A stretch of DNA of 64,000 nucleotides from Halomicroarcula saliterrae (lineage in GTDB: Archaea > Halobacteriota > Halobacteria > Halobacteriales > Haloarculaceae), in NCBI RefSeq assembly GCF_031624395.1, contig NZ_JAMQON010000009.1, forward strand, positions 1 through 64,000. The letters run 5' to 3'. The position numbers were made by a program, and so were the translations under genes. The notes below the pieces were generated by a model. It searched no databases. It saw only the letters and a program-made list of their open reading frames with translations, and was not told the origin of the DNA. Positions 7,656 to 57,549 of the stretch are shown here, one piece after another (within the stretch, counting starts at the first letter, position 1; each line of letters starts with the position of its first letter).

Positions 7656-8489
7656 TCAGTCCAGCAAAAGCGATTCGTCAACATACTTCGGCTCGGGGAG
7701 GTCGATATCTGTGCCGATATCGTACTTATCGAATGCTTCGGGTACGAACCCACCTTTCAATTCTGCTGCCGAAATCTCTATCTCTCGATGGCGAGCGACC
7801 AAGAGATGGGCAGCGGTAGCGTGACTGAAAACTGCTTTCCACGTGTGAGCGTTGCTCAGACGGTCATTATGCGCATCGGCGAGTTGTTGGAGCGATTCAC
7901 GCGTCGCTGCCTCGTCGTTCTCGAGAAGTGATTCGTGGAGGTTCGACAGAAGTTCCGTTTCCTGTTTGTCGTTATCGCAGACGTACTTGTCGAGGTACAT
8001 TTTAGCCTTGCTGTCGTTGCCCTGACACAGATGTGCTAATGTCGAGAGCTTCCAATAGTTCCTATTGGAGCCGCTCCCCACGCCGTAGTCAGCTTCGAAG
8101 CGGTCAGCCATCTCCAGCAGGTCGTCCGTCAGAGCATCAAGCAAACGGCTGTCTCCCGCGAGCGTAGTAATGTACAGACACCATTTGAGATTGAAGCCAA
8201 ACCCCATCCGATGACTCTTGCTGAGGTCGTCCCAACAATCGACGGCTTCCTGACGCATTGATCGGGCATAGAGACCAGCAGTTGCGTACTCTTCTCTAGC
8301 TCTGTGGACCTCACCTAACAGTACGGAACAGTTCCCAAATCTCCACCACTTTTGAAACAAACTCCGGTAATTACTATATATCGGTTTTCCATCATTTATT
8401 CTTTGTTTCAGGCCCCAGTATGCAGAATCGAGATCGTCTTCAAGTCGGTTCCGAAGTTGTTTTGCATCATCTTTACCATTCATGGTCAT
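7656..8489 (-). CDS. Imm49-like immunity protein of the adjacent toxin (277 aa)
   Basis: An all-helical, repeat-like cytoplasmic protein with pattern blocks such as FNLKWCLYITTLAGDSRLLDALTDDLLEMADRF, resembling helical immunity proteins of the Imm49 type. No signal peptide or catalytic motif is seen. Its start overlaps the stop of the giant secreted protein by 4 nt (ATGA), the standard toxin-immunity arrangement of polymorphic toxin loci. An ATG two codons later (8483) is also possible. The Imm49 label is by motif feel; the immunity role rests mainly on position after a C-terminal nuclease domain. Confidence 0.6.
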   Translation of the reverse strand: MTMNGKDDAKQLRNRLEDDLDSAYWGLKQRINDGKPIYSNYRSLFQKWWRFGNCSVLLGEVHRAREEYATAGLYARSMRQEAVDCWDDLSKSHRMGFGFNLKWCLYITTLAGDSRLLDALTDDLLEMADRFEADYGVGSGSNRNYWKLSTLAHLCQGNDSKAKMYLDKYVCDNDKQETELLSNLHESLLENDEAATRESLQQLADAHNDRLSNAHTWKAVFSHATAAHLLVARHREIEISAAELKGGFVPEAFDKYDIGTDIDLPEPKYVDESLLLD

Positions 8490-56291: not shown

Positions 56292-56337
56292 GCCCGTGCC
56301 GTGGTCGGCGTCGCCCGGTTCGATTCCGGGCACGGGC
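56292..56337 (+). ncRNA. tRNA-like minihelix element A (46 nt)
   Basis: 7-nt stem GCCCGTG (56292-56298) pairs with CACGGGC (56331-56337). Between them is the linker CCGTGGTCGG-CGTCG and a perfect T-arm: CCCGG, loop TTCGATT, CCGGG (56314-56330). There are no D or anticodon arms. Elements B and C have the same 7+15+17+7 layout. Confidence 0.6.
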
Positions 56338-56649
56338 CCTCCACATGCCCAGTGGTAGTGCCTCCAGCCGGCGCCGGCGATGCCCAGTCGGCACCGGCCG
56401 TGTCGCTGACAGCCCGTCGTGTGCCCGCAGTCGAGAGTTCGCCCATAGTTCAAAAACCGTTCTAGCCGACAGGAGTCCCGGTCGAGGACTGGCCGGCCGT
56501 ACCCACCGACCGGCCCGAGACACACAGGCTCCGGACCAACCGTTCGTGTGGACGAACAGCGGCAGACACACTGTCCGGGCCCAGTCCGAGTCGGCAGGCC
56601 TGTGCCGGAATAAACATTGGGCCAGCAGTGCCCGCCGGGGTGGTCGGGC
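56338..56649. other. Region after element A without a convincing gene
   Basis: A 102-codon frame (56345-56653) starts 7 nt after element A, like the genes after B and C, but its product is basic and Arg/Ser-rich, unlike this genome. Another frame reads GDAQSAPAVSLTARR, faintly like the DEAQCD start of the two later genes. Probably a decayed gene. Confidence 0.35.
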
Positions 56650-56901
56650 ATGACTCATCCCGGCGCTATCGTCGTCTGTCAGGCTCTGGACTGTCGGCCC
56701 CACATGCTCGTCCTCAACGTCGAGGACGACCGGCTGCGGACGGCGTTGCTGGCCGATCTGGCCAGCGAGACCGTCCAGCGACTGCGCCGTGGCCACACGA
56801 AGCCGGTCGTCCAGGCGGTTCTGCGGGCCGACGCAATCGAGACCTACTGGGTTCCCAGCGACGACGTCGCGCCCTCGCCAGTACTGGAGGGGCCACCGTG
56901 A
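56650..56901 (+). CDS. Small plasmid protein (83 aa)
   Basis: MTHPGAIVVCQALDCRPHMLVLNVEDDRLRTALLADLASETVQRLRRG has a compact alpha/beta pattern with two Cys and a His. Overlaps the next gene (GTGA). Function unknown. Confidence 0.55.
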   Translation: MTHPGAIVVCQALDCRPHMLVLNVEDDRLRTALLADLASETVQRLRRGHTKPVVQAVLRADAIETYWVPSDDVAPSPVLEGPP

Positions 56902-57086
56902 CCGACCTGCATCTGTGGCGGGTTGGCTACGACGTCGGCGGCGTCGCCCACTACACAGCCTGGACCGGGCAGTACGACGCAGTCGCCGCGCTATACGACC
57001 AGTATCGGTACAGCGTCGGCGCTCGGTCGGTCCGCCTAGAGTGGTGGTGCGTGGCGCCTGGATGTGACTATCCCAGCAGTGGGTGA
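56898..57086 (+). CDS. Small plasmid protein (62 aa)
   Basis: GTG start overlapping the previous stop by 4 nt. VTDLHLWRVGYDVGGVAHYTAWTGQYDAVAALYDQYR, ending with Cys residues (WWCVAPGCDY). Trp/Tyr-rich. Translationally coupled to the previous gene. Function unknown. Confidence 0.5.
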   Translation: MTDLHLWRVGYDVGGVAHYTAWTGQYDAVAALYDQYRYSVGARSVRLEWWCVAPGCDYPSSG

Positions 57087-57127
57087 CCCGAGGGTTTAGA
57101 AGCGAAGCCGCAGCCATGCCGTAGCTA

Positions 57128-57173
57128 GCCTACCCCGTGGTCGGGGTGGCCCGGTTCGATTCCGGGGGTGGGC
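57128..57173 (+). ncRNA. tRNA-like minihelix element B (46 nt)
   Basis: GCCTACC (57128-57134) pairs with GGTGGGC (57167-57173) with one G-U. The linker CCGTGGTCGG-GGTGG and T-arm CCCGG-TTCGATT-CCGGG (57150-57166) follow the same pattern as A. It ends 8 nt before the ATG at 57182. Confidence 0.6.
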
Positions 57174-57181
57174 CGTGCAGT

Positions 57182-57448
57182 ATGACCGACGACAACTCCG
57201 CTGCCGACGAGGCACAGTGTGACACTGACGGCACCGAACGGATCGAGCGAACCGATATTGGCGCCAGCATCGAAGCCCGACTCAAACGCGGGACTGGGAC
57301 CAGAGACGAGGACAGGATTACAATCACGGTCAAAGGTGAAACGGCCGACGAAGCCGCCAGCGAGTTCGAGTATCTGCTGGCGCAGTACGAGGCGGAGTAC
57401 GGCGACCGGTGTCGGAACATCCAGCCCTCGAAAGGTCGCCATCGGTAG
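57182..57448 (+). CDS. Small acidic protein following tRNA-like element B (88 aa)
   Basis: Starts MTDDNSAADEAQCDTDGTER; the same DEAQCDT start recurs in the next gene. Middle region RITITVKGETADEAASEFEYLLAQYEAEYGD is a strand-helix unit like a ferredoxin-like or DNA-binding fragment. Function unknown. Confidence 0.55.
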   Translation: MTDDNSAADEAQCDTDGTERIERTDIGASIEARLKRGTGTRDEDRITITVKGETADEAASEFEYLLAQYEAEYGDRCRNIQPSKGRHR

Positions 57449-57496
57449 CGGCCGCCAGGTGATCTGCGCAGTGACGCCGCGGTCACTCCGCGGGTC

Positions 57497-57542
57497 GCCC
57501 ACGCCGTGGTCGGTGCGACCCGGTTCGATTCCGGGCGTGGGT
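57497..57542 (+). ncRNA. tRNA-like minihelix element C (46 nt)
   Basis: GCCCACG (57497-57503) pairs with CGTGGGT (57536-57542), the outermost pair being G-U. Linker CCGTGGTCGG-TGCGA; T-arm CCCGG-TTCGATT-CCGGG (57519-57535). It ends 7 nt before the ATG at 57550. Compensatory stem changes relative to A and B (GCCCGTG/CACGGGC, GCCTACC/GGTGGGC) support real base pairing. Confidence 0.62.
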
Positions 57543-57549
57543 CTCAGGG

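Follow-up and report, generated by a model that had tools for sequence, protein, structure and literature searches.

The DNA examined here, termed the window, is a stretch of 64,000 nucleotides from a contig of Halomicroarcula saliterrae; the genus Haloarcula, as used below, includes Halomicroarcula. Within the window, a series of genes headed by one for a helix-turn-helix protein is interrupted at three places by tRNA-like elements, which we call A, B and C (Table 1). The gene behind B encodes a DUF7389 protein, and the gene behind C encodes a plasmid protein of 294 aa, for which we found no family in Pfam, PHROGs or NCBIfam. Just the first ~30 residues of the ORF behind A resemble ORFs that follow equivalent elements in another genome (loci L028 and L029).

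The elements begin 11 nt (A), 41 nt (B) and 48 nt (C) after the upstream stop codon. The 70 nt in front of each element contain no all-A/T hexamer, and such a hexamer was present within 70 nt upstream in 1 out of 24 other Haloarcula copies examined. The spacing from the stop codons and the missing hexamers suggest that A, B and C lie inside a single transcript and do not mark promoters of their own. The genes around them apparently form one operon and would be co-transcribed.

Table 1. Features at and around elements A, B and C, numbered by window position; cleavage sites are predictions modelled on the 5S rRNA t-element.
Feature	Position	Strand	Remarks
TATA-like TTATAA	55862..55867	+	probable promoter of first operon gene; no other all-A/T hexamer run within 70 nt upstream of ATG 55915
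Helix-turn-helix (PadR-like) gene, 121 aa	55915..56280	+	first cistron; phrog_4278 E=1e-16; PadR E=2.5e-4, below cutoff
t-element A	56292..56337	+	acceptor 56292-56298/56331-56337; mini hairpin 56299-56308; T-arm 56314-56330; CM E=3.3e-13
Predicted tRNase Z cut behind A	56338..56339	+	discriminator C56338; 6-nt leader
ORF behind A, 102 aa	56345..56653	+	coding status uncertain; N-terminal similarity to ORFs at L028, L029
ORF, 82 aa	56653-56901		end overlapped by 62-aa ORF
ORF, 62 aa	56898..57086	+	stops 41 nt before B; no family found
t-element B	57128..57173	+	CM E=5.4e-11
Predicted tRNase Z cut behind B	57174..57175	+	7-nt leader
DUF7389 gene behind B, 88 aa	57182..57448	+	PF24115 E=5e-29
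t-element C	57497..57542	+	CM E=1.5e-11
Predicted tRNase Z cut behind C	57543..57544	+	6-nt leader
Plasmid gene behind C, 294 aa	57550..58434	+	coiled coil; C-terminal half conserved

Layout and uniqueness of the three elements

Each element spans 46 nt and consists of a stem strand, a linker, a T-arm and a second stem strand (7+15+17+7 nt), exactly at the three positions and in the layout read by the first-pass annotation. The 15-nt linker opens with CCGTGGTCGG in A, B and C and contains a mini D-like hairpin, CCG-TGGT-CGG. The T-arm is perfect, as had been claimed, with the same 17-nt sequence (CCCGG-TTCGATT-CCGGG) and therefore the same TTCGATT loop in all three elements. All seven pairs of the acceptor-like stem form in A (GCCCGTG/CACGGGC), in B (GCCTACC/GGTGGGC, one pair being U-G) and in C (GCCCACG/CGTGGGT, the first pair being G-U). 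In each element, an acceptor-like stem thus stacks on a T-arm that bears a tRNA T-loop, which is the arrangement of a t-element. An ATG follows after 7, 8 and 7 nt, respectively, where 7-8 nt had been noted earlier, and the proteins encoded behind B and C do share the reported start ending in DEAQCDT. No T-run lies 3' of A, B or C.

When up to three mismatches were allowed, the core pattern matched three times in the window and not once over 100 shuffles. In the 4.2-Mb genome, it matched A, B and C only, and the reversed-pattern control gave no match. The elements resemble canonical tRNA genes in the identity of the T-loop, the acceptor-type stem and a probable elbow contact, but they lack an anticodon arm and a normal D-arm. 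ARAGORN found no tRNA genes anywhere in the window, including at A, B and C, and an Rfam search of the window, again including the elements, returned no match. With both searches empty, and with no anticodon arm or full D-arm, we rejected the identification of A, B and C as tRNA genes.

Covariation of the paired helices

We aligned 21 distinct Haloarcula elements by plain sequence alignment, with one single-base gap in one row. In this alignment, 97.8% of pair cells were paired, and 31 cells had changed on both sides, compared with 10.3 +/- 2.4 after shuffling; none of 500 shuffles reached 31. Double changes were present in all three helices. The mini-hairpin CCG-TGGT-CGG becomes CTG-TGGT-CAG in 8 out of 21 sequences, for example, and a C-G pair of the T-stem is replaced by U-A. 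When the partner was shifted by one column, pairing fell to about 50%. The seventh acceptor pair was missing in 6 out of 21 elements. The compensatory stem changes that the first-pass annotation had taken as a sign of RNA structure are thus well borne out, and both the structure and its covariation are established. Its statement that D and anticodon arms are absent held for the anticodon arm; the D arm is not strictly absent, as the mini-hairpin covaries. This UGGU mini-hairpin probably imitates the elbow formed by the D-loop and T-loop and, by analogy with G18 and G19 of tRNA, its loop may touch the T-loop.

Folded as lone 46-mers, the elements exceeded shuffled sequences in stability by only about 2 SD. 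Because this folding energy is weak, we built the case on covariation rather than on energy. The mean pairwise score was 0.77 for the element, 0.42 for the upstream flank, 0.48 for the downstream flank and 0.42 for shuffled elements, and the element is thus a conserved island between less conserved flanks.

Across a wider set of 46 elements that included 5S t-elements, 14 out of 15 pairs changed on both sides, and the covariation score was 0.553, compared with 0.162 +/- 0.014 after shuffling, in an alignment (A6) that was fitted to the structure and so leans to its model, as the 21-element Haloarcula test does not. We chose the model-fitted alignment because MAFFT misaligned the 5' strand of divergent elements. 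The linker motif TGGY occurred in 37 out of 46 elements, compared with 9.5 after shuffling, a bias that is partly built in because the elements came from a model containing TGGT.

Kinship with 5S rRNA t-elements and recurrence in haloarchaea

In Haloferax volcanii, the t-element is a tRNA-like structure directly 5' of 5S rRNA (PMC4326828, PMC4946936; also PMC3296008). It is a substrate for both RNase P and tRNase Z, and processing by tRNase Z makes the 5' end of 5S rRNA (PMC4326828, PMC4946936); it has also been put to use in vivo for crRNA release (PMC4326828, PMC4946936; also PMC3296008). The elements described here share with it an acceptor-like stem, a T-arm with a TTCGAYT loop, a short linker, the lack of an anticodon arm and an acceptor stem that stops 1 nt short of the next RNA, and the same covariance model finds 5S-associated copies. 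By contrast, the mRNA elements precede protein genes, lie between cistrons, occur several to an operon and have a covarying UGGU mini-hairpin, and their cleavage is predicted.

We built a covariance model (R1) from Haloarcula mRNA elements alone, without flanks, and ran it over 392 genomes of the order. Outside Haloarcula, R1 matched directly before 5S rRNA at loci L097-L099, L108, L113, L115, L117, L175, L182 and L190; through this model, the family of A, B and C is recognised as the same structural family as the 5S t-elements, and the kinship is established. In the 5S-associated elements, the acceptor end lies 1 nt before mature 5S rRNA, and in the operonic 5S genes of Haloarcula the element ends one nt before TTAGGCGG or TTAAGGCGG. 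Several isolated Haloarcula 5S copies have no t-element (L124, L129, L132, L143 and L144, around position 1500), and 2 out of 3 examined have TTATAA at -31. These isolated, t-element-free 5S genes are a natural control for a processing role. The structural match to a known tRNase Z and RNase P substrate supports the earlier suggestion that A, B and C are targets of tRNA-processing enzymes.

Start codons follow the matches at short distances. Among R1 matches, preselected for the T-loop and taken without those at 5S genes and in the Haloarcula plasmid family, 18 out of 37 were followed within 10 nt by the ATG of an ORF encoding 60 aa or more (3.8% at shifted positions) and 27 out of 37 within 40 nt (14% at shifted positions). 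This proximity is independent evidence because the models contain no flanking bases. A broader model (R2), comprising the acceptor stem and T-arm only, gave matches at E<=0.01 in 202 out of 293 haloarchaeal genomes and 63 out of 87 genera. In a sample of 73 R2 matches outside Haloarcula, 47 precede 5S rRNA; an ATG lay within 12 nt in 5 of the 73 (shifted, 5%) and at 13-45 nt in 15 (shifted, 10%). With the 5S-associated matches removed, an ATG lay within 45 nt in 20 out of 26 (control, 15%). The non-5S R2 matches often lie directly behind the stop codon of another gene. The recurrence of the element between genes is established across haloarchaea.

A common junction among R1 matches is the acceptor stem followed by C and then T-ATG, and a predicted cut after the discriminator would therefore leave a leader of 1-2 nt. 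Where the ATG lies at 13-45 nt, the leader mostly opens with a short hairpin 0-2 nt from the predicted cut, in a test that covered 25 out of 30 sequences. The downstream genes include those for camelysin-like (PF12389), DUF1102 and DUF5658 proteins, and copies outside Haloarcula also occur on large chromosome-sized contigs. The clearest case is L294 (15 kb, reverse strand), where tandem genes for camelysin/VWA-type secreted proteins are separated or directly followed by five t-elements; these genes appear to form an operon that ends in a probable signal peptidase gene. L295 has the same design. The covariance-model search across haloarchaea, proposed earlier as a check, thus yielded further copies with covarying stems, and did not refute the claim. 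The view of the first-pass annotation that these are tRNA mimics in mRNA leaders is supported as well, and it coincides with its suggestion of targets for tRNA-processing enzymes. Model matches that had no T-loop (for example, L169, L180 and L184) or lay inside coding-like sequence were taken as chance. A pattern scan of viral contigs gave 23 matches, several of them within ARAGORN tRNA calls, and no convincing haloviral element.

Within Haloarcula, a genus-wide protein search showed that the elements, which are mostly on plasmid-sized contigs, recur ahead of a plasmid-borne gene of ~294 aa belonging to an unnamed family. In the Haloarcula loci that we read, every essentially full-length gene of this family had an element before its start codon. 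A broken copy (L059) had none, and stems were decaying in some elements with a broken or missing gene behind them (L015, L026 and L008). The element was absent from 3 out of 3 genes of the family examined in Haladaptatus, Natronococcus and Natrinema. The three-element arrangement recurs in a second species (L039). At L032 (about 7820-7975), TGCCACGA is repeated ahead of the 294-aa gene and again over its start codon; a regulator or the gene product might bind to these repeats. At L105 (2023-2067), a t-element lies 3 nt before the ATG of another Haloarcula coiled-coil plasmid protein, which is similar in size to the 294-aa protein and falls outside its alignment.

Predicted processing and alternative explanations

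We propose, with a probability of roughly 0.7, that each of A, B and C is an intercistronic t-element, that is, an anticodon-less tRNA mimic in a polycistronic plasmid mRNA and a cutting site for tRNase Z. We infer the cleavage, the enzymes that perform it, co-transcription and an effect on expression. The acceptor-like stem, T-arm and UGGU mini-hairpin would fold within the transcript. tRNase Z, for which the genome has a gene (RNase Z), would recognise the acceptor stem and T-arm and cut just behind the discriminator, as it does ahead of 5S rRNA. Each gene behind an element in the window would thereby acquire a separate 5' end, 6-7 nt from its AUG. RNase P may also cleave in front of G1, which would free the upstream cistron and excise an RNA of ~46 nt. 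One transcript would in this way be punctuated into separate, nearly leaderless mRNAs. Leaders shorter than 10 nt are common in haloarchaeal mRNAs (PMC4574771). Across haloarchaea, cut mRNAs would keep leaders of 0-11 nt or a 5' hairpin, and the spacing from mRNA elements to the AUG appears to fit a 5S-type cut position. A 2012 study in Biochimie by Hoelzle et al. reportedly listed a further 47 predicted tRNA-like elements in Haloferax, and those tested are said to have shown no cleavage in vitro, so structure alone may not suffice for cutting. That list may bear on how far the mRNA class was anticipated and on whether the conserved, covarying elements differ.

On balance, we lean towards a general system of tRNA punctuation in haloarchaeal mRNAs, in which tRNase Z (and RNase P) would cut mimics between genes and so turn polycistronic transcripts into single-gene mRNAs that are leaderless or capped by a hairpin; surface-protein and plasmid operons would contain several elements each. 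To our knowledge, few archaeal mRNA cleavage signals are known, and the open-licence papers that we searched contained no report of archaeal mRNA t-elements of the class described here. Such elements would tie tRNA enzymes to mRNA maturation and would offer a route from one transcript to leaderless messages with separate stabilities. A near parallel in principle comes from mitochondria, where tRNAs and plant t-elements in polycistronic RNAs mark the cut sites of tRNA enzymes and set mRNA ends (PMC8003010, PMC9181182). The haloarchaeal case would be similar in having tRNA-like structures between cistrons, at sites where cuts are predicted; the intercistronic position and missing promoter signals were observed, and co-transcription is what we infer. 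It differs in that mitochondrial punctuation is an organellar system, with no evidence of a common origin, and in that haloarchaeal processing is predicted to yield mRNAs with almost no leader or with a hairpin cap. A motif search among haloarchaeal processing sites reported no sequence motif uniting internal sites (PMC8303175); a conserved, covarying element that can be recognised computationally would allow cut sites to be predicted directly in haloarchaeal genomes.

A position 7-12 nt before the AUG and a conserved T-loop would also suit a protein-binding translational switch, as would the presence of the element on related genes of one family. The elements would then be structured leaders that stay uncut, their tRNA-like fold controlling translation of the gene behind when bound by a tRNA-binding enzyme, a ribosomal protein or the downstream gene product. 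We consider this unlikely: the same fold lies before unrelated genes (DUF7389, DUF1102, camelysin-like and DUF5658) and before 5S rRNA, which is untranslated, and spacing to the AUG ranges from 2 to more than 40 nt, whereas the 5S spacing fits cleavage. A discrete product of ~46 nt is plausible because both ends of the element resemble RNase P or tRNase Z sites, and the loop sequences are very conserved. The element is nevertheless very unlikely to be the precursor of a functional small RNA of that size, with mRNA release incidental, given that stem and linker sequences are free to diverge while the stems pair, and that its position is tied to start codons.

Two further explanations concern DNA. 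Inverted repeats, three copies of which separate consecutive genes, mostly on plasmid-sized contigs in Haloarcula, might be an operator, a terminator-like hairpin or a recombination or gene-cassette site; we regard such a role as highly improbable, since G-U pairs and conservation of a tRNA-type T-loop indicate RNA, no T-run follows the elements, and copies occur at 5S genes and, outside Haloarcula, on chromosome-sized contigs. The first-pass annotation had also considered derivatives of a tRNA 3' half left at integration (att) sites, for which the plasmid context and the T-arm and acceptor sequences could speak. We rejected this reading and give it almost no credence. No exact copy of the 17-nt T-arm exists in the genome outside A, B and C, and the elements are therefore not pieces of one of its own tRNA genes. 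In addition, the window has no tRNA gene, every element has its own complementary 5' strand, the stems covary through compensatory changes, and many unrelated genes lie downstream.

At L090 (1501-1545), a t-element-like structure that is not ahead of a start codon lies a few nt past an in-frame stop codon and is followed by a possible terminator; this structure may mark an mRNA 3' end.
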